The notes under the pieces were generated by a model. That model saw only the letters and a list, made by a program, of their open reading frames with translations, was not told where the DNA came from and did not search any database. Positions 10,088 through 46,658 of a stretch of DNA of 64,000 nucleotides are shown here, piece after piece. Source of the DNA: Phycisphaerae bacterium (GTDB lineage: Bacteria; Planctomycetota; Phycisphaerae; Phycisphaerales; UBA1924); NCBI GenBank assembly GCA_030432255.1, contig JAUIHS010000005.1:124001-188000 (forward strand). Direction: 5' to 3'. Position 1 is the stretch's first letter. Each line of letters begins with the position of its first letter. The position numbers and the translations under genes are program-made.

Positions 10088-10612
10088 ATGACCCGTAAGA
10101 CCTCGACATCTGGGACAGGCTCTGGACCGACTGGAGGAGATCGGTCCGGACGCCTGCACCTTGAGAATGCCCGACGAATCGCCGGGACCTCGCCGCTGTC
10201 ACGGCGCATGACCCGCGAAGACGTCCGACGAGCCAACCGGGCCGCCGCCGCCATGACCAACGAGGACGCCCGCCTCATCATGGCCGCTCGGGTCTCCGAA
10301 TCGCTCCAGGGTGGCCGTGCCGCGATCCTGCGCCCCGAACGACGCATGAGCCTGATGCGCCTCGCAACCCGACTCGGCATCCGAGCCTTCGACGCCAACC
10401 TCATCATCGCCATCGTGCAGGACAGCGCGCGTCGCGGCGAGACGATGGAAGACATCGAGGCGGAATCGCGTCTCACCCCCATCCCCCACCCGGCGCTCGC
10501 CGCAAGCCGGCGCCGCTCGCGCCGCTTCTGGAGTCGCGTCCGCACGATCGTCGCCGCCGCGTGCATCGCCGGCGTCGCGATCGTCTGGTTGACGAACTGG
10601 CTGGTGGGGTAG
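10088..10612 (+). CDS. Hypothetical protein with a single C-terminal membrane anchor
   Basis: The 174-residue product is rich in Arg, Ala and Glu and predicted helical (MTREDVRRANRAAAAMTNEDARLIMAARVSESLQ...), ending in one hydrophobic segment, IVAAACIAGVAIVWLTNWLVG. This is the layout of a tail-anchored membrane protein. No domain is recognised and no clear ribosome binding site precedes ATG 10088; a later ATG at 10208 is an alternative start. The codon pattern (third-position G/C) and the clean C-terminal anchor argue that it is real. A heptamer repeat begins just after its stop. Confidence 0.55.
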   Translation: MTRKTSTSGTGSGPTGGDRSGRLHLENARRIAGTSPLSRRMTREDVRRANRAAAAMTNEDARLIMAARVSESLQGGRAAILRPERRMSLMRLATRLGIRAFDANLIIAIVQDSARRGETMEDIEAESRLTPIPHPALAASRRRSRRFWSRVRTIVAAACIAGVAIVWLTNWLVG

Positions 10613-10620
10613 GGATTGGG

Positions 10621-10664
10621 CTTCTGGCTCCTGGCCAAGCTCCAAGCTCCAACCTCCAAGCTCC
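10621..10664 (-). repeat. Degenerate 7-bp tandem array, GAAGCNN-type family
   Basis: Read on the plus strand the array is CTTCTGG, CTCCTGG, a CC break, then AAGCTCC, AAGCTCC, AACCTCC, AAGCTCC. On the minus strand the units are GGAGCTT- and CCAGAAG-like, the same vocabulary as the larger array at 16795-16885. It fills most of the 70-bp gap between two genes, starting 9 bases after a stop codon. Confidence 0.75.
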
Positions 10665-11191: not shown

Positions 11192-11247
11192 CCCAACCCC
11201 CAACCCCCAACACCCAACACCTGACACCCAACCCCAAACCCCGAACT
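11192..11247 (+). repeat. Degenerate 7-bp tandem array, CCCAACC-type family
   Basis: Eight consecutive heptamers in perfect register: CCCAACC, CCCAACC, CCCAACA, CCCAACA, CCTGACA, CCCAACC, CCAAACC, CCGAACT. The array fills the gap between the convergent bcp and gpsA genes and its last base coincides with the last base of the gpsA stop codon. Confidence 0.85.
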
Positions 11248-12263
11248 CACCCAATCCGCTCCGCTTTCGGATCCCGGCTCATCAACTGCGCAATCGCTTC
11301 AGCCGGCGACAGACCCTCATACAACACGCCGTGCACCGCCAAGACGATGGGCATGTCGATGCCGCGATCGGAGGCCAGGCGCGCCACGGCACGCGTTGTT
11401 GCAACCCCCTCCACGACTGACTTCGTGCGCTCGAGATACCCCTCCAGCGTCTCACCACGCCCCAGCGCTTCGCCGCAGGAACGATTGCGCCCCTCCGGAC
11501 TGAAGCACGTCGTCGCGAGGTCACCCACACCGGCAAGCCCGAAGAACGTCTCCGCCCGCGCCCCCATCGCCACGCCGAAGCGCACCACCTCCGCAAGGCC
11601 ACGCGCCAGCAGCGCCGACTTCGCGTTGCAACCTGCCCCCATCCCGTCCACGATCCCCGCCGCCAGCGCGATCACGTTCTTCAAAGCGCCCGACAACTCC
11701 ACACCAACCGGGTCGTCGTGTGTGTAGATCCGCAGCCACGGCGTCGTGAAGATCGACTGCATCAACTCAGACAACTCCGCATCCGCGCTCGCCGCCAGCA
11801 GCGTCGCCGGCAACTCACGCGCCAGTTCCGCGGCGATCGTCGGCCCGCTCAGCACACCCAGCGAGCCCACCTCCGGGAGGACATCCGCGATGATCTCGGT
11901 CGGCCTCAGCAGCGTGTCGATCTCAACCCCCTTCGCGACACTTGCGCACGGCACGCCTGCCCCGATATGGGGAGCAAGGCGCTTCAGCACCGCGCGGATG
12001 AACTGGGTCGGCGTCGACACGATCAGCAGTTCCGCGCCCCGCAGAGCCTCGGCATCGTCACCCGTGCAGACAACCTCCGCCGCCAGTTCAAACCCTGGCA
12101 GCCGTTCCGGCCGCCTGGTCTGTGCGAGCGATCGGGCCGATTCAGAGTCGTGACTCCACAGCACCACGCGGGGTACGCCGGCAACCCGCACCAGCACATC
12201 GGCCAGCACCAGTCCCATCTGGCCATCACCCAGCAGCGCAATCGAACTCGGACGTCGGGACAC
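11247..12263 (-). CDS. gpsA: NAD(P)-dependent glycerol-3-phosphate dehydrogenase
   Basis: This 338-residue cytosolic enzyme makes sn-glycerol 3-phosphate from dihydroxyacetone phosphate for phospholipid synthesis. The N-terminal nucleotide-binding motif is GDGQMG (fits GxGxxG). Further family blocks are VASVAKGVE, LSGPTIAAELAREL, VGVELSGALKNVIALAAGI with the catalytic lysine, NAKSALLARGLAE and GLAGVGDLATTCFS. The length fits the family. It is transcribed alone, divergent from the metal ATPase, and its stop codon touches a heptamer array. Confidence 0.95.
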   Translation of the reverse strand: MSRRPSSIALLGDGQMGLVLADVLVRVAGVPRVVLWSHDSESARSLAQTRRPERLPGFELAAEVVCTGDDAEALRGAELLIVSTPTQFIRAVLKRLAPHIGAGVPCASVAKGVEIDTLLRPTEIIADVLPEVGSLGVLSGPTIAAELARELPATLLAASADAELSELMQSIFTTPWLRIYTHDDPVGVELSGALKNVIALAAGIVDGMGAGCNAKSALLARGLAEVVRFGVAMGARAETFFGLAGVGDLATTCFSPEGRNRSCGEALGRGETLEGYLERTKSVVEGVATTRAVARLASDRGIDMPIVLAVHGVLYEGLSPAEAIAQLMSRDPKAERIG

Positions 12264-12489: not shown

Positions 12490-14541
12490 ATGTCGCAGGA
12501 CAACGACACGAAGAAGACAGGCAAGCACGATCACGATCACGGCGGGCAGCACGCCGGCAGCATGGAATGTTGCGCCCACCATGAGGTCAGCGGCGAACGC
12601 TGGATCATGCTCAGCATCATCGGCGGCCTGCTGGTCTTCATCTCAACCCTCTCCCGATGGTTCGACATCGGCTCGCAGGAGATCAGCCAGATCCCCGCGA
12701 TCTTCGGTGCCATCTTCCTCGGCGCTCGACTCGTCTACGCCGCCTACAAGGAAGTCGTCTCCGGGCGCGCCGGCAGTTCGACGCTCGCCGCCATCGCCAT
12801 CATCGCCGCCATCGCCATCCAGAAGTACGAAGCCGCCGGCTACCTCGCCTTCATCCTGCTCGTCTTTGACCAGGCTCTCCGCCGTACCGCGTGGGGCGCC
12901 CGCCGCGCCATCGAGGACCTTGTCGGTCTGACTCCTGACATCGCGCGCATCATTGAGAGCGGAGTCGAGCGCGAGGTCGGTCTCGAAGAAGTGAAGGTCG
13001 GCATGACGGTGCGCGTCCGCCCCGGCGAGAATCTGCCCGTCGACGGCGTCATCTCCGACGGTCGATCCATGATCAACCAGGCCAGCCTGACCGGCGAGGC
13101 CGCTCCCGTCGAGGTCGAAACCGGCTCACAGGTCTACGCCGGTACCACCAACATCACGGGCAACATCGACCTCCAGGTCACCGGCGTCGGTGAGGACACC
13201 ACCATCGGCAAGGTCGCTGAACTCATCAATGAAGCCGAGTCCACGCGCACGCCGCGGCAGGCCCTGATCGAACAGGTGGCCCGCTACTTCGTACCCGTCG
13301 CGATCGGCATCTCGTTCCTCGTCTGGTACCTCTCAAGAGACGTCGAGAGCGCCATCAGCGTGCTTGTCGTGACGTGTCCCTCCGCACTCCTCATCTCAAG
13401 CCCGACGGCGATGATGGCTTCCTTTGCAGCCGCCGCCCGCCTCGGCATCCTGATCAAGCAGACGCAGTACCTTGAGGCCGCCGCCAACGTCGACACCATC
13501 GTCTTCGACAAGACCGGCACGCTCACAACCGGACGCTTTGCTGTCTCACGTCTCTCGCCCGCCGATGGCATCGAAGGTGCGATACTGCTGCAGGCCGCCG
13601 CGGACGCCGAGCAGCATTCCAACCACCCACTGGCCAAGTCCATCATGCAGACCGCCGAGTCGGCGCGCATCAAGCCGGTCGAGACGGAGAACTACGAGGA
13701 GATCCACGGTCACGGCGTGCGCTCGCAGAGCCCCCATGGTGAACTTCTTGCCGGGCGCTCTTCCTGGCTCCGCAAGATCAACCCCGATATCGCCGGACAG
13801 GTCGCCACGGTCGAGAGTCGCATCGAGGGGATGTCCGGCGTGCACGTGATGCGCAACGGCGAGTACCTCGGCGCCGTCGGACTCGAAGACAAACTCCGCT
13901 ACAACGCCCGCGCCGTCGTCGACCGCGTACGCGAACTCGGTGCCCGGCGACTCCTCGTCTTCACCGGTGACCGCCTCGCCGTCGCCAAGCGCGTCGGATC
14001 GGCAGTCGGTGTCGATGCGGTCGAAGCCGAGTGCCTCCCGGAAGAAAAGCACAGCCTCGTGACCGAACTCTCCGACCAGGGACGCCATGTCCTCATGGTC
14101 GGCGACGGCATCAACGATGGACCATCACTCGCCGCCGCCGACGTCGGCGTGGCCATGGGCCTCTCCGGCTCCGACATCGCGACCAACTCCGCGGGTATCG
14201 CGCTGATGAATGATGACCTCAGCCGCATCCCATTCCTCATCATGCTCGCACGCCGTACCCGCATGATCATCGCGCAGAACATCGCGATCTCCATCATCAT
14301 CGCGCTCATCGGACTCATCGTCGCCGCCACCGGGGCCATCAACATCGGTATCGCGGCCTTCTACCACTTCTTCGGTGACGTCTGCGTCCTCGGCAACAGC
14401 TTCCGACTCATCCGCTTCGGTGAGGATTTCGCCGCCCAGGAGAAGTACGCCGCCTCCAGCGCCGCACGGGACGCTCAGCGACAGGGCACCGGGCGCGCCG
14501 GATCCGCCCGCATCGCCCGCCCCGGGACCTCCGCCGCCTGA
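12490..14541 (+). CDS. P1B-type heavy-metal translocating ATPase with CPS transport motif
   Basis: The 683-residue membrane pump has a short His- and Cys-rich N-terminus (HDHDHGG, MECCAHH) but no HMA domain. Catalytic motifs are TGEA (Thr201-Ala204), the transport-site motif Cys296-Pro-Ser, the phosphorylation site DKTGT (Asp340), the His379-Pro380 pair of P1B ATPases, and GDGINDGP (from Gly538). Eight membrane segments are visible; the last carries FFGDVCVLGN, where Zn/Cd exporters have a conserved Asp. CPS replaces the usual CPC, SPC or TPC, so the metal is uncertain; zinc or cadmium export is the best guess. ATG 12490 is chosen over 12475 because the His-rich tail starts there. No metal-responsive regulator is adjacent. 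Confidence 0.88.
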   Translation: MSQDNDTKKTGKHDHDHGGQHAGSMECCAHHEVSGERWIMLSIIGGLLVFISTLSRWFDIGSQEISQIPAIFGAIFLGARLVYAAYKEVVSGRAGSSTLAAIAIIAAIAIQKYEAAGYLAFILLVFDQALRRTAWGARRAIEDLVGLTPDIARIIESGVEREVGLEEVKVGMTVRVRPGENLPVDGVISDGRSMINQASLTGEAAPVEVETGSQVYAGTTNITGNIDLQVTGVGEDTTIGKVAELINEAESTRTPRQALIEQVARYFVPVAIGISFLVWYLSRDVESAISVLVVTCPSALLISSPTAMMASFAAAARLGILIKQTQYLEAAANVDTIVFDKTGTLTTGRFAVSRLSPADGIEGAILLQAAADAEQHSNHPLAKSIMQTAESARIKPVETENYEEIHGHGVRSQSPHGELLAGRSSWLRKINPDIAGQVATVESRIEGMSGVHVMRNGEYLGAVGLEDKLRYNARAVVDRVRELGARRLLVFTGDRLAVAKRVGSAVGVDAVEAECLPEEKHSLVTELSDQGRHVLMVGDGINDGPSLAAADVGVAMGLSGSDIATNSAGIALMNDDLSRIPFLIMLARRTRMIIAQNIAISIIIALIGLIVAATGAINIGIAAFYHFFGDVCVLGNSFRLIRFGEDFAAQEKYAASSAARDAQRQGTGRAGSARIARPGTSAA

Positions 14542-15829: not shown

Positions 15830-16675
15830 ATGGAGCAGCCACCACCCCCGAAGGACGTTGGACCGCCGCGGCAGCCCGACCTGTTCTGCGCTGAATGCGG
15901 CTACGACCTCGCAGGACTCGACCTCAGCGGCGACTGCCCCGAGTGTGGTGCTCTCATCGCCCGGTCCCTTGAACGGACGCTCGGCAATGCCAGCGACGAC
16001 TACCTTGGCAAGCTCTCCTTCGGCCTGCTCATTGTCCTGGTCGTCACACTCGTCTCCATCGTCAACCAGATCGCCCAGATCGCCGTTTCCATCGCATCCG
16101 CATTCGCAGCCGGCGTTGGCGGCGTTCCTCTGAAGTACGCAGACCTCGCATTGAGCCTCCTCGGCATCACGACCATATTCCTGGCCGGTGTCGGACTCTA
16201 TGGCTGGTGGCTCTTCACGACTCGTGACCCGGGACTGACGGGACGCCACGATGGGACGACTGCCCGCCGGATCGTCCGCATCTCGATCATCATCACGACT
16301 GTGATCACAGTCGGATCCGCCTTGAACCAGGTCTTCGTGCCGATGAACGCGTATGCAGGTGCGACCACATTCAATGCAATCATCGTGGGCGCCATCGTGC
16401 TGAGTATCTTCTCGATCGGGGCCTGGGTCGCGCAGTATCTCGCAACGATGCTCTATATCCGATGGCTCGCCGACCGCGTCCCCGATGTTCCCATCGCGAA
16501 TCAGACCCGGCTCTACATCTGGCTCCTGCCGGTCCTCTATGTCGTCGGTTTCGCATGCGCGGGGATCGGTCCGATCATCTCGCTCATCATCTACGTGATC
16601 TTCCTCTTCCAGGTGCGCGCGATGATCGAACGCGTCCGGGCCGCCGGCCCGACGCCTCGACCGGAAACGGCATAA
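15830..16675 (+). CDS. Zinc-ribbon multi-pass membrane protein
   Basis: The 281-residue protein begins with a proline-rich tail and a four-cysteine zinc ribbon, FCAECGYDLAGL...GDCPECGAL (Cys residues near positions 21, 24, 36 and 39). This type is common as an N-terminal tag on planctomycete membrane proteins. Five hydrophobic segments follow (for example FGLLIVLVVTLVSIVNQIA, IVRISIIITTVITVGSAL and IGPIISLIIYVIFLFQVRAM). It is probably an inner-membrane protein with a cytosolic zinc ribbon. The function is unknown. It lies 23 bases after the preceding membrane protein, probably co-transcribed. Confidence 0.8.
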   Translation: MEQPPPPKDVGPPRQPDLFCAECGYDLAGLDLSGDCPECGALIARSLERTLGNASDDYLGKLSFGLLIVLVVTLVSIVNQIAQIAVSIASAFAAGVGGVPLKYADLALSLLGITTIFLAGVGLYGWWLFTTRDPGLTGRHDGTTARRIVRISIIITTVITVGSALNQVFVPMNAYAGATTFNAIIVGAIVLSIFSIGAWVAQYLATMLYIRWLADRVPDVPIANQTRLYIWLLPVLYVVGFACAGIGPIISLIIYVIFLFQVRAMIERVRAAGPTPRPETA

Positions 16676-16794
16676 GCCCGCCCCACGCGCACAAACACGT
16701 GAAGCGGAGTGAGAGGGAGGGTCGGTGACGGACCGTGACCAGCCACCGACAGACACCATGGCGCAAACCACCACCCGGAAGTGCCATCAAGGTG

Positions 16795-16885
16795 GAGGCT
16801 TGAAGCTTGAAGCCGAGAGCAAGAAGCAAGAAGCAAGAAGCCAGAAGCCAGAAGCTGGAGGCTTGAAGCTGAAAGCTGAAAGCCA
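16795..16885 (+). repeat. Long degenerate 7-bp tandem array, GAAGCNN family (13 units)
   Basis: Thirteen heptamers run without a register break: GAGGCTT, GAAGCTT, GAAGCCG, AGAGCAA, GAAGCAA (twice), GAAGCCA (twice), GAAGCTG, GAGGCTT, GAAGCTG, AAAGCTG, AAAGCCA. The AGC core is nearly invariant while positions 6-7 vary. It lies in the 291-bp gap between the convergent zinc-ribbon and MshEN genes; nothing else was recognised in that gap. Confidence 0.9.
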
Positions 16886-16967: not shown

Positions 16968-17471
16968 TCACGCCATCAGTTTCCGGAAGGGATCGCCGTT
17001 CACATCATCCGGGCCCAGACCGCCCAACGGGTAACACCACGCCAGCGCCTCGCCAAGCAGACCCTCACTCGTCAGAACAACATCCGCGGGCGCCGTCAGA
17101 CACTGCGACACAAACCGCATCGCACGCGCCAGGTACGGCGGTGATGTCGCCACCGTGAGCACCTCACGCTCAAGACGAAGCGGAATCACCTTGAATTGCC
17201 ACGCCTGGCGACGAGTCACATACACCAGGGTCGACTCCTCAATGCCCTCCTCGAAAATGTCGACGCGACCGCTGACCGCCGCGAACTGCTCAGCCCACGC
17301 GGCCTCCACATCATGAGGTGGCACACCGAAGATGCGCTCCGCGAGAAGACCGAAGGGCCGGTGCTCCTCCTGCTGGACCTCGAGGATGTGCGCGACCTGT
17401 GACTCTGTCAGCAGGCCCCGGGATACGAGCACTTCTCCAAGCCGCGGCGGGCGGCACGAATCCTGATTCAT
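16968..17471 (-). CDS. Stand-alone MshEN (type II secretion ATPase N-terminal) domain protein
   Basis: The 167-residue product matches the N-terminal domain of GspE/MshE-type ATPases: RLGEVLVSRGLLTESQVAHILEVQQEEHRPFGLLAERIFG is the usual helical start, and the second half (YVTRRQAWQFKVIPLRLEREVLTVATSPPY) is the MshEN core. MshEN domains can bind cyclic di-GMP. The ATPase part is absent, so this is a free-standing domain. AGGAG lies eight bases before ATG 17471; the long upstream extension in frame is not protein-like. No secretion genes are nearby, so a role as a small c-di-GMP sensor or adaptor is inference. Confidence 0.75.
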   Translation of the reverse strand: MNQDSCRPPRLGEVLVSRGLLTESQVAHILEVQQEEHRPFGLLAERIFGVPPHDVEAAWAEQFAAVSGRVDIFEEGIEESTLVYVTRRQAWQFKVIPLRLEREVLTVATSPPYLARAMRFVSQCLTAPADVVLTSEGLLGEALAWCYPLGGLGPDDVNGDPFRKLMA

Positions 17472-19569: not shown

Positions 19570-20856
19570 ATGCTGACCGGACTCATCGGAATCGGTGTCT
19601 TCGTGCTCGCTGCGTGGGTGCTCTCTTCCGACCCCCGCCGCGTCCCCTGGCGACTGGTCTTCACCGGCATCGCGCTCCAGTTCGTCCTTGTCGTCCTCCT
19701 CCTCAAGGTCCCCTTGGTCAACCACGGCTTCGAGTGGGTCGCCACCGTCGTCACCGGGATCATCGCGCAGGCCGACGCCGGCATCGTCTTCGTCTTCGGA
19801 CCCGCCCTCGCCGATCCCACCGGACCTGCCGGCTGGGTCTTCGCCATCCGCGCGCTTCCCGTCGTCATCTATTTTTCCTCCCTGATGGCCATCCTCTATT
19901 ACCTCGGCATCATGGATCGCGTGATCGCCGCGCTCGCATGGATCCTCCGACGCACACTGCGCGTGACCGGCGCCGAGGCGCTCGCCATGGCCGCCAATGT
20001 CTTTGTGGGTCAGACCGAAGCGCCGCTCACCGTGAAGCCCCTCATCGAGAAGATGACGCGCGCACAACTCATGACGCTCATGGTCGGCGGCTTCGCCACC
20101 ATCGCCGGCTCCGTGCTGGCCGCCTACGTCAGCATGCTCGCCGGTGCCGACGAAGACCGCGCCATCACGCTCACCATGCACCTCATCGCCGCCAGCATCG
20201 CATCGGCACCAGCAGCGTTCGTCATGGCACGCATCCTCGTCCCCGAAACCGAAACACCTCCCCCCGAGCACGCCTCCGACATCCGTGTCGATCGCAAGGC
20301 CGATCACACCAACGTGCTCGACGCGGCGGCCTCCGGCGCCATCGTCGGTCTGAAACTCGCGCTGAACATCGGCGCCATGCTGATTGCCTTCGTGGGTCTG
20401 ATCGCGCTGGCGAACTGGGGCCTCGATGCGCTCACCCTGCCACTGCATCGCATGGAGTTGATGAGCGCTGACCAGTCGCTCTCGATCGAGGGCATCCTCG
20501 GATGGATCTTCGCACCCCTGGCATGGACCATGGGAGTTCCGTGGGACGAGGCGGGCATCGTCGGCTCTCTGATGGGCCAGAAGATCACGGTGACCGAGTT
20601 CATCGCCTATCAGAACCTGGCGCCACACATGACGGGTGACGGTGGCGCCGTCCTTCTCTCAGAGCGATCACAGACGATCTGCGCCTTCGCCCTCTGCGGC
20701 TTCGCCAACCTGCCCTCCATCGCCATCCAGATCGGCGGCCTCTCCGCACTGGCCCCCGGTCGGCGCCAGGACTTCGCACGCCTCGCCTTCAAGGCCATGA
20801 TCGGCGGCGCCTTCGCAAGCTGGATGACCGCCTGCATCGCGGGAATCTTCGTGTAA
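19570..20856 (+). CDS. CNT-family concentrative nucleoside transporter (NupC-like)
   Basis: The 428-residue inner-membrane protein has about ten hydrophobic segments. Diagnostic is AMAANVFVGQTEAPLTVKPLIEKM, the CNT nucleoside-binding loop, followed by the second half FIAYQNLAPHM...ICAFALCGFANLPSIAIQIGGLSALAPGRR. Bacterial CNT proteins import nucleosides with protons or sodium. The length fits NupC. The short N-terminus starts right at the first membrane segment, so ATG 19570 is accepted despite a weak ribosome binding site. The upstream terminator may allow premature-termination control. Confidence 0.92.
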   Translation: MLTGLIGIGVFVLAAWVLSSDPRRVPWRLVFTGIALQFVLVVLLLKVPLVNHGFEWVATVVTGIIAQADAGIVFVFGPALADPTGPAGWVFAIRALPVVIYFSSLMAILYYLGIMDRVIAALAWILRRTLRVTGAEALAMAANVFVGQTEAPLTVKPLIEKMTRAQLMTLMVGGFATIAGSVLAAYVSMLAGADEDRAITLTMHLIAASIASAPAAFVMARILVPETETPPPEHASDIRVDRKADHTNVLDAAASGAIVGLKLALNIGAMLIAFVGLIALANWGLDALTLPLHRMELMSADQSLSIEGILGWIFAPLAWTMGVPWDEAGIVGSLMGQKITVTEFIAYQNLAPHMTGDGGAVLLSERSQTICAFALCGFANLPSIAIQIGGLSALAPGRRQDFARLAFKAMIGGAFASWMTACIAGIFV

Positions 20857-20928
20857 GCCTCTGGCAACCCGACATCGGGCACAACGGAGCAGAAGCTCAT
20901 CAATCTCACGCCGAAGGCGCTCAACCCC

Positions 20929-20963
20929 GATTGCCGGATGCCGGATGCCGGATGCCCAATGCC
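20929..20963 (+). repeat. Degenerate 7-bp tandem array, NNATGCC family
   Basis: Five heptamers in register: GATTGCC, GGATGCC, GGATGCC, GGATGCC, CAATGCC. The array lies between the convergent transporter and rtcB genes and ends four bases from the rtcB stop codon. A related array is at 46630-46658. Confidence 0.85.
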
Positions 20964-20967
20964 GAAC

Positions 20968-22341
20968 CTACCCGCCCTCCGGCGCCATCTTCACGATCCG
21001 GGGCATGAAGCGCGCGAGCGGGTCGATGAGGTCCGCCTGGGCAGCGATCACTTCGTCGATGTTCTTGTACGCATGCGGTGACTCGTCCAGCCCGGCCGAG
21101 AGCAGCGTGACACCCCGCTCCTCGAGGTGCGCCTTGAGGTGACTCCACCGGATCGTTGACTTCGCCTTCTTGCGCGACAGGCGACGTCCCGCGCCGTGCG
21201 ACGCCGAATCCAGACCCGTCGAACTGCCCCGGCCCCGAACCAGGTACCCCGGGTCCGCCATGGACCCCGGGATGAAGCCGAGAACGCCCTCGCCCGCGGG
21301 CGTCGCTCCCTTGCGATGCACGATCACATCGCGCCCGTCATGCTGCTCACGCCACGCAAAATTGTGGTGGTTCTCCACCTGCAGCAGAGTCGCACCTCCG
21401 ACGGCGCCAGTGATGCTCTCATGGATCACGTGATGGTTGGCAGAGGCAAATCGCCCCATCAGTTCCATGGCTTCCCAGTACTCGGCACCGTCGTCGTCCA
21501 TGGACAGCCACGCCAGGTGTCGAAGTTCCTTCGGCAACCCCGGGTGCCGATCCATCGCGAGGTTCGAGTAATGGGTAGCAACGGTTGAACCCGGGCCGCG
21601 GGAACCGGAGTGTGACAGCAACGCCAGATACGTCCCCGGCGGGACACCCAGGTCATTCTCACCGAACTCCATTTCTCCGAACTCAACGAAGTGGTTCCCC
21701 GAACCACTCGTACCCAACTGACGCCACGCCTTGTCCTTCACCTGCGCGGTCACCGGCGTCACGCTCCAGTCCTCGTCCATCACTTCGTGCCACGGACCGC
21801 CATCCGTCCACTGGGCGCCGACACCGAAGCGCGTGTTGTCCTCCAGCACCCGCTTCAGATCATCCGCCATGACAGCCATGCGACCCGACGGGATGTCCAA
21901 CACCGTCAGCATCACGCGGCACGCAATATCAACACCCACCGCGTACGGAATGACGGCGTTGTCCGTCGCCAGCACGCCGCCAATCGGAAGGCCGTAGCCA
22001 ACGTGCGCATCAGGCATGAGCGCCGCGCCCACCGAAATCGGAAGCCGACACGCATGGCGCATCTGTTCGTGCGCCTTGGGATCAATCTCGTCGCCCCACA
22101 CCGCGTAATCCAGATCCTCACGCAACGCCACCGGAGCCGGACGGCTGATCAACGCCGCGGCCACATCCCCGAAGATCGGATCCTGCGTGTAGTCGTCAGG
22201 GTTGTTCAGCAACCGCTTGATCGCCTGGCGGACTTCGTTCTTCTTCCAGCCATCGGAATAGGCCGCTTCGCACGCGGCGAGAGCGGCCTTGATCGCGGGT
22301 CCCTGCCCCATACCCAGGTTGACCAGTTCACGTCCCTTCAT
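20968..22341 (-). CDS. rtcB: RtcB-type RNA-splicing ligase
   Basis: The 457-residue protein has all RtcB landmarks: MPDAHVGYGLPIGGVLAT, VGVDIACRVM (Asp and Cys metal ligands), GSGNHFVE, HSGSRG, HHNFAW, HRKGATPA and DSASHGAGR, where the His (about residue 382) takes the GMP adduct. RtcB joins 2',3'-cyclic phosphate or 3'-phosphate to 5'-OH RNA ends with GTP and manganese. ATG 22341 is used; a GTG three codons earlier is possible and neither has a clear ribosome binding site. No archease or RtcR is nearby, so here it stands alone as in many bacteria where it repairs RNA. Confidence 0.95.
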   Translation of the reverse strand: MKGRELVNLGMGQGPAIKAALAACEAAYSDGWKKNEVRQAIKRLLNNPDDYTQDPIFGDVAAALISRPAPVALREDLDYAVWGDEIDPKAHEQMRHACRLPISVGAALMPDAHVGYGLPIGGVLATDNAVIPYAVGVDIACRVMLTVLDIPSGRMAVMADDLKRVLEDNTRFGVGAQWTDGGPWHEVMDEDWSVTPVTAQVKDKAWRQLGTSGSGNHFVEFGEMEFGENDLGVPPGTYLALLSHSGSRGPGSTVATHYSNLAMDRHPGLPKELRHLAWLSMDDDGAEYWEAMELMGRFASANHHVIHESITGAVGGATLLQVENHHNFAWREQHDGRDVIVHRKGATPAGEGVLGFIPGSMADPGYLVRGRGSSTGLDSASHGAGRRLSRKKAKSTIRWSHLKAHLEERGVTLLSAGLDESPHAYKNIDEVIAAQADLIDPLARFMPRIVKMAPEGG

Positions 22342-22383
22342 GGTGGACACTGTAGCGTCACACCGGGAGCGAGAACGTGCGGT

Positions 22384-45811: not shown

Positions 45812-46447
45812 ATGATTCGGATCATCACTGGAGAGTTCAAGGGAAGGCGGCTGGAGACGCCGCGAGACTCTTCGAAGACTCGCCCGCTCCCCGACCGGGT
45901 GCGAACGGCCATCTTCAATATGCTTGCGGGTCACTGCGAGGGCTACGCATTTCTTGATGTGTTCGCAGGCACGGGCTGCTTCGGTCTTGAGGCCATTTCG
46001 CGTGGTGCATCGGAGTGCGTATTCGTCGAACGCGACCGGCACATCGCGGGCATCCTGCGTCGCAACATCGAATCGCTGGGCGCCGGGGATCGCGCCTCCC
46101 TGGTGCAGGCAGATGCGCTGGGGCTGACCGTGCTGTCCCGCTGCCCCCGTCCCGTTCACGTGATCAACTTCGACCCGCCGTACCCCATGGTGCAGGATCC
46201 AGCACAGCGGGCGCAGGTCTTTGAGCAGTTCGTGAGACTGACGGAGTACCTCGATGCGGACGGCTTTGCATTGCTGAGAACGCCGCACCCCTTCTATGAG
46301 CCTCGCGCTGAGGACGAACCGGTCAGCACTCGGATCGAGGTGGACATGACGTTGCCCGGTCTGCTTGGTCCGGAGACGCATGCCTACGGGAGCACGGCGG
46401 TGCACTGGTACGCGAGGGCTCAGGATTCGTCGGCGGATTCGGCCTGA
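45812..46447 (+). CDS. rsmD: 16S rRNA m2G966 methyltransferase RsmD
   Basis: The 211-residue SAM-dependent methyltransferase begins with RIITGEFKGRRLETP, the RsmD signature, then RPLPDRVRTAIFNML and the SAM-binding FLDVFAGTGCFGLEAISRGA. The catalytic motif is NFDPPY. It methylates G966 of 16S rRNA on the assembled 30S subunit. Length is near that of known RsmD proteins (about 190-200). It is two bases downstream of the barrel gene, probably one transcript, and its 3' end overlaps the convergent small gene by 28 bases. Confidence 0.93.
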   Translation: MIRIITGEFKGRRLETPRDSSKTRPLPDRVRTAIFNMLAGHCEGYAFLDVFAGTGCFGLEAISRGASECVFVERDRHIAGILRRNIESLGAGDRASLVQADALGLTVLSRCPRPVHVINFDPPYPMVQDPAQRAQVFEQFVRLTEYLDADGFALLRTPHPFYEPRAEDEPVSTRIEVDMTLPGLLGPETHAYGSTAVHWYARAQDSSADSA

Positions 46448-46614: not shown

Positions 46615-46629
46615 GATGCGCTCATTGTA

Positions 46630-46658
46630 GGCATTCGGCATTGAGGCATTCGGCAATG
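46630..46658 (-). repeat. Degenerate 7-bp tandem array, NNATGCC family
   Basis: On the minus strand: CATTGCC, GAATGCC, an extra T, CAATGCC, GAATGCC. It shares the ATTGCC/AATGCC/GRATGCC vocabulary with the array at 20929-20963, in the opposite orientation. It lies between a terminator and the small membrane-protein gene. Confidence 0.75.

Follow-up and report, generated by a model that had tools for sequence, protein, structure and literature searches.

An excess of heptameric repeats in bacterial genomes has been known since 2007 and, as far as the available text of PMC4692102 goes, its cause is unsettled. In two Xanthomonas genomes, according to that text, the heptamer repeats are on average 28 nt away from their 5' neighbour and 160 nt away from the ORF that follows, and they form 70-75 inverted pairs per genome. 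A second group of repeats, the GTAG REPs of Di Nocera and co-workers, is described in the accessible parts of PMC3733652 as lying near the 3' ends of ORFs, with termini that often supply the TAG stop, and as forming HH dimers. The Xanthomonas GGGAATC heptamers and the GTAG-REPs are the closest precedents for the arrays reported here, and the parallel with known heptamer repeats that a first, sequence-only reading of this DNA had drawn holds. Among literature titles and abstracts, a coverage that lies mostly outside subscription papers, we found none joining heptad arrays with GTAG elements. The grammar of the present arrays, their GTAG edge and their place and direction relative to stop codons make the heptamer excess testable: could such repeats be mobile REP-like elements with expandable arms? 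If this were true, they would provide a family for watching tandem growth within dispersed elements, as well as a process by which stop codons are written and the codons ahead of them perhaps shifted.

The window, a stretch of 64,000 nt from one contig of a Phycisphaerae bacterium, was analysed (Table 1). Its focal array had been described as an uninterrupted register of thirteen heptads lying between two convergent genes, which we confirm: the units read TGGAGGC, TTGAAGC twice, CGAGAGC, AAGAAGC three times, CAGAAGC twice, TGGAGGC, TTGAAGC and TGAAAGC twice, and the flanking genes are 15830-16675 on the plus strand and a minus-strand gene ending at 16968. The focal array is atypical in that its edge is without GTAG and the nearer stop, that of the minus gene, is 84 nt away (70 nt from the scored segment, which reaches 16897). 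By eye, a GCGGCATGC...GCATGCCGC stem lies between that stop and the array. Four companion gaps had been thought to keep a strict period of 7; three of them hold true period-7 arrays, whereas the fourth alternates units of 7 and 8 nt. One of the three, the gap at 10621-10664, is indeed built of heptads but by eye forms an inverted pair, a G-rich arm followed by a C-rich one, rather than a single array. The exclusion of a CRISPR explanation stands, since the units are 7 nt long and spacers are absent, against the 24-48 bp repeats with unique spacers of CRISPR. Rfam gave no gathering-level match in the window and none at 20840-20980 even with E-values up to 1. The window also contains an RsmD-like gene (45812-46447) whose NCBIfam match stops at residue 126 of 211, leaving the C-terminal stretch unmatched.

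Table 1. Coordinates of arrays, edges and associated features; positions are those of the window unless a genome or locus is named.
Feature	Coordinates	Strand	Remarks
GTAG	10609..10612	+	TAG is the stop of gene 10208-10612 (sequence, gene call)
Short G-rich heptad run, first arm	10618..10634	+	After the stop of gene 10208-10612 (by eye)
C-rich heptad array CCAAGCT, second inverted arm	10635..10664	+	
G-rich array, gpsA sense	11192..11246	-	Starts at the base following the gpsA stop (gene 11247-12218, minus)
Focal array	16793..16883	C-rich strand on +	13 heptads, unbroken register
Element A copy	20875..20956	-	Heptads, CGCC-UUC-GGCG hairpin, GAGC-UUCU-GCUC hairpin; top-scoring of at least 75 genome copies
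GGCATCC/GGCATTG heptad array	20932..20966	-	Sense for RtcB-family gene
GTAG	20968..20971	-	TAG is the stop of RtcB-family gene 20968-22350
GTAG	46627..46630	+	Edge of the 46630 array (sequence)
GGCATTC-type units, spacing alternately 7 and 8 (period 15)	46630..46658	+	Outside the 86 counted arrays
Y1_Tnp genes, own genome, two	G000:C115:122113-122454 (L283); G000:C19:19912-20256 (L282)		
Palindrome mosaics	L041:11908-15432; L038:16105-16271; L047:10060-10140; L072:2136		

When the window was scanned at periods 4-30, 4 segments passed at period 7, along with its multiples 14, 21 and 28; three other tracts passed, at 12785 (period 9/18), 2467 (period 18) and 46629 (period 15). The wider sample covered 864 kb of the genome (19%), namely the window and 40 stretches of 20 kb picked regardless of arrays. 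Here the expectation that 7-nt arrays are commoner than those of other periods was borne out, with 68 segments at a score of at least 15 for period 7 against a maximum of 7 for any period that is not a multiple of it (period 8, followed by periods 3 and 15 with 6 each). Periods 14, 21 and 28 gave 39, 14 and 9 segments. When the first 20 stretches were each subjected to one mononucleotide shuffle, no period-7 segment remained. Given this period spectrum and the zero in shuffles, the arrays are not chance tracts. In stretches from 20 related genomes (343 kb, of which three stretches were placed on a pattern hit and one consisted of N only), period 7 yielded 7 segments, period 8 also 7 and period 9 yielded 8. 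Further, the pattern GAAGCNN repeated three times occurs at 75 places in the own genome and in 5 of 60 relatives, a set that includes no same-genus genome, at one place each. These pattern counts support the arrays being lineage-specific. The analyses below use the 86 arrays that score at least 13 in the 864 kb, which extrapolate to about 450 in the whole genome.

We fitted the 86 arrays to a single 7-column profile with phase and strand left free, and obtained the C-strand consensus WSCYNVM, in which column 3 is C at 96%. The log-likelihood of this grammar was -3088 (best of 12 starts), compared with -3462 to -3647 for three random-word sets and -3674 to -3735 for four column-permuted sets, controls that had fewer starts (3 and 4 each, respectively). 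In 11 of the 86 arrays, units standing in register diverge from one another at no fewer than 4 of the 7 positions, and words interconvert in the arrays that were written out, as in L072, where TCCCTGA turns into TGCCCAA in phase. Because the fit beats its controls and because units differ and interchange in register, the word families are best treated as one, and the sequence-only reading's several unrelated heptamer families do not survive. A CC rule for each unit was considered and dropped, as 86% of units obey it against 83% under independent columns, which adds little beyond the columns themselves. Word similarity did not depend significantly on neighbourhood (0.5-5 kb), the observed value being attained in 30 of 500 permutations.

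The arrays tend to occupy a particular place and direction. Gene calls came from a small dicodon model that had been trained on the own genome (660 genes, coding fraction 0.84), and the intergenic position proposed for the arrays applies to 76 of the 86, with 9 overlapping a called gene and 1 at an edge; looser handling of overlaps makes 82 arrays placeable. Among these, 57 have a co-oriented upstream gene on their G-rich strand at a median distance of 6 nt from the stop, and 47 start within 25 nt past a stop with the G-rich strand as the mRNA sense, where 2000 draws within the same gaps gave a null mean of 14.2 and a maximum of 25. Stop-proximal array-gene pairs number 49 in G-sense and 6 in C-sense, and 3 of the 6 C-sense arrays are also counted as G-sense because they are close to two genes. 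Over the 40 nt that follow stops, identity is 0.348 at lag 7 and 0.27-0.29 at lags 4-6 and 8-11; ahead of starts, lag 7 gives 0.280. Within the window, two profiles support the positions of the stops, that of GpsA extending to residue 321 of 323 and that of the RtcB family to 453 of 460. Of the 49 array genes, 10 more, with mixed functions, were tested; all 10 carry Pfam domains, and in 3 of these genes the match comes within 30 residues of the C-terminus. We rejected an extension of the arrays into coding ends, since lag-7 identity there (0.290) does not stand out: the other lags, multiples of three excluded, span 0.263-0.291. One perfect 99-nt (CCCAACA)n array was seen within a called gene (L071:2772-2870), possibly a false gene call.

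For 47 of the 86 arrays, the downstream flank resembles that of at least one other array, compared with 9 of 86 array-free gaps, a control that is imperfect in that its 86 sequences are clipped at genes and are set against 172 array flanks; flanks were clustered by single linkage, and residual heptads may account for part of the links. An iterated profile search seeded with the flank of the array at 20932-20966 recovered 42 copies, some of them partial, of a dispersed element in the 864 kb, here called element A. In order, it consists of GGCATTC-type heptads, GGGGTTGA, a CGCC-UUC-GGCG hairpin, about 10 variable nt and a GGAGC-UUCC-GCUCC hairpin, beyond which the sequence is unconserved. Among 28 aligned copies, both sides have changed in 6 cells of the first hairpin, 5 at one of its three pairs and 1 at another, and only 1 change is confined to one side, while the second hairpin is invariant and covariation is thus uninformative for it. 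Genome-wide there are at least 75 copies, a number that is a floor because every scored candidate (75 of 75) matches model R1. Forty of the 75 pair into 20 inverted doublets with the hairpins inside and the heptads outward, none showing the reverse arrangement, and 15 of the 20 spacers measure 2-9 nt. Of the 42 copies in the sample, 27 follow a co-oriented stop at a distance of no more than 60 nt, and GTAG stands up to 80 nt upstream of 15, where about 4 are expected. Element A adjoins only 19 of the 86 arrays. Model R1 has weak matches in 27 of 60 relatives, at 34.1 bits or less compared with 46.3-86.6 bits in the own genome, and these may be hairpin-only or chance matches.

GTAG is the top 4-mer at the gene-side edge, found in 27 of the 86 arrays where 2.8 are expected (p = 1.7e-19). 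Taken over a slightly different span it occurs in 29 arrays from all five word classes, 22 of them without element A, and it is missing in 57, the focal array included. In the GGTGGCT/GGTAGCT class, where 7 of 16 arrays have GTAG, the unit can itself hold these letters; excluding this class leaves 22 of 70. Arrays away from stops have GTAG as well (7 of 37). TAG is the stop codon of 28 of 48 array genes but of only 113 of 612 other genes, in a genome whose commonest stop is TGA (474 of 660 genes). Together, the anchoring at stops, the polarity, the GTAG edge, the hairpin element and the doublets, all of which had escaped the sequence-only reading, point towards a REP-like dispersed element rather than a bare simple repeat, and show the arrays to be more orderly than that reading had them.

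Other dispersed palindromes (CCTGGGGTTTCACCCCAGG; CACTGCTC...GAGCAGTG) were observed to make up mosaics together with hairpins of the types GTGCGAAGCACG and CCTGTCCTTCGGACAGG; palindromes of the first type are found beside the Y1 genes too. For two further palindromes, B and C, profile searches with short queries returned 1 and 0 copies and simple patterns 14 and 18 matches on both strands. The own genome has two Y1 transposase genes, one of them 1.5 kb left of the window. Both lie amid CCTGGGG...CCCCAGG-type palindromes, not heptads, and one heptad array is about 1.4 kb from one of the two. Across ten genomes including the own, a heptad array was near 5 of 34 Y1 loci (about 3 kb around), which does not exceed the background level. 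Y1 genes are present in 46 of the 61 genomes, among them the own one, and so do not follow the distribution of the arrays. Judged from the form of the elements, mobilisation may be by a RAYT-like enzyme.

The reading that we prefer, and to which we assign about an even chance, is that the arrays are arms of small REP/REPIN-like dispersed elements at gene ends, lengthened by 7-nt slippage. Such elements would copy themselves to new gene ends, possibly by single-strand transposition with a Y1/HUH enzyme acting in trans, and their heptad arms would grow by slipped copying in 7-nt steps. The other word families would be sister elements of element A, and the transcribed element may serve, or be tolerated, as an mRNA 3' end. 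It is unlikely that the arrays are instead pure STRR-type simple repeats, born by 7-nt slippage at many independent, least-constrained sites with no dispersed element involved. The earlier proposal that the units evolve by point change and unit duplication is upheld, with 127 of 299 adjacent unit pairs identical and changes at every position (118 transitions and 90 transversions in pairs with 1-2 differences), and this, like the heptamer excess already reported for bacteria (available text of PMC4692102), fits simple repeats. However, independent births would not yield one grammar, one orientation, a GTAG edge and common flanks.

Stop anchoring and polarity would equally be expected if the arrays were selected mRNA 3'-end signals, terminators or exonuclease barriers that arose by slippage in situ and needed no mobility. 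A significantly complementary downstream arm accompanies 10 of 44 testable arrays at p<=0.01 and 14 of 44 at p<=0.05, and inverted heptad arms occur in the genomes G061-G063 (see below), both in line with such signals. Yet 30 of the 44 have no significant partner, so that we rejected the hairpin as a general principle in the own genome. Over the 90 nt that follow stops, array genes (41) and array-free genes (281) have equal fold energy, giving no sign of extra RNA structure, and no obvious U-tract followed the arrays in 24 cases inspected by eye. We regard selected 3'-end signals as an unlikely origin of the arrays.

Array genes also carry a compositional signature around the stop, rich in G and poor in C, which sets in within the coding sequence. 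In 30-nt bins from -150, their GC skew is -0.02, 0.05, 0.08, 0.19 and 0.48 before the stop and 0.42, 0.35, -0.01, -0.12 and 0.01 after it, whereas in other genes it stays within 0.04 of 0 except for the last coding bin (0.14), with 0.02 just after the stop. The frequency of C at third positions of the last 5 codons is 0.09 in array genes and 0.33 in others. The strong excess of G over C at synonymous sites in the last 60 nt before array-gene stops is not clearly 7-periodic. This coding-end skew is not accounted for by insertion of an element, and its source might be a nucleotide-level pressure around the stop. It is what one would look for if R-loop or G-quadruplex zones, driven by a G-rich sense strand, caused transcription-linked change with heptads as a by-product, but we hold this to be very unlikely, as it leaves period 7, GTAG, element A and the doublets unaccounted for and as GGCTTCT and GGCATTC, judged from their sequence, are poor G-quadruplex formers.

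Similar arrays occur in other lineages. The exact 21-mer (AAGCCAG)3 is found in at least 119 stretches from many phyla, in which gene finding is poor (coding 0.39-0.72 by group) and orientation tallies are weak; stop-adjacent arrays in this mixed set show both orientations, 8 on the G-strand and 10 on the C-strand. Adjacent inverted array pairs number 7 among 19 arrays in the Phycisphaerae genome G063, 6 among 36 in the Phycisphaerales genome G061 and 4 among the 86 of the own genome, and in the Acidobacteria genome G062 there are 9 among 27 arrays (8 among 25 without a duplicate locus). An array length of 33 nt recurs in 9 of 19 arrays of G063 and 10 of 36 of G061. In G062 (L243:13570-13658, L232:267-1388, L192:1952-2031) we observed repeated near-perfect hairpins whose (AGAAGCC)n arms are mostly 31-33 nt. 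Of 149 Lysobacteraceae genomes, 46 contain the pattern (GGGAATC)3, two of them at more than 200 places, and 103 lack it. One GGGAATC-bearing member, G086, has 14 arrays in 400 kb, 12 of them intergenic, and none of these 12 lies within 25 nt after a stop. Extending the dispersed-element reading, we tentatively suggest, as a possibility with less than even prospects, a class of dispersed elements in which a phase-locked heptad arm takes the place of the REP palindrome, in the order GTAG, heptads and small hairpins, often in head-outward doublets and landing on stops, with counterparts in distant lineages and the Xanthomonas heptamers included. As part of that suggestion, the counterparts would be the inverted (AGAAGCC)n arms, commonly 31-34 nt, around a short loop in G061, G063 and G062.

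Compared with known systems, the arrays resemble cyanobacterial STRR in being tandem 7-nt intergenic units at several loci. They resemble the Beggiatoaceae TAACTGA direct repeats as intergenic heptamers spread across one genome and through scattered lineages; unlike the present arrays, TAACTGA is one exact word, in that genome mainly upstream of starts (available text of PMC4679880), and it falls outside WSCYNVM. With the Xanthomonas GGGAATC and Nostoc GGGGATT repeats they share G-rich, degenerate and mostly intergenic heptads, and the C-strand words of these two repeats, TCCCGAT and TCCCCAA, fit WSCYNV and WSCYNVM, whereas neither a GTAG tag nor a hairpin element is described for these heptamers in the accessible parts of PMC4692102. 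Unlike those of the own genome, the arrays of the sampled Lysobacteraceae genome G086 are not stop-anchored, and G086 does not reproduce the proximity of Xanthomonas repeats to their 5' neighbour (28 nt in the same text). The GTAG-REPs, as presented in the accessible parts of PMC3733652, are palindromes of 20-40 bp with one stem-loop of 6-13 bp; here, in contrast, the body is a heptad array, followed in element A by two short hairpins (3-5 bp, with 3 and 4 pairs in the consensus) in place of the single stem-loop. Unlike GTAG-REP/REPIN systems, the two Y1 genes of the own genome are not flanked by arrays, and we found no associated RAYT. Element A doublets put the heptad end outward where GTAG-REP dimers put their tags outward (PMC3733652, in part). 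A GTAG edge, often giving the TAG stop as in GTAG-REPs, is seen in about a third of the arrays and missing from most. As in the GTAG-REP/REPIN systems of that source, however, the elements are dispersed and mostly intergenic, tend to sit at gene 3' ends, form head-outward inverted dimers (element A) and are patchy among phyla.
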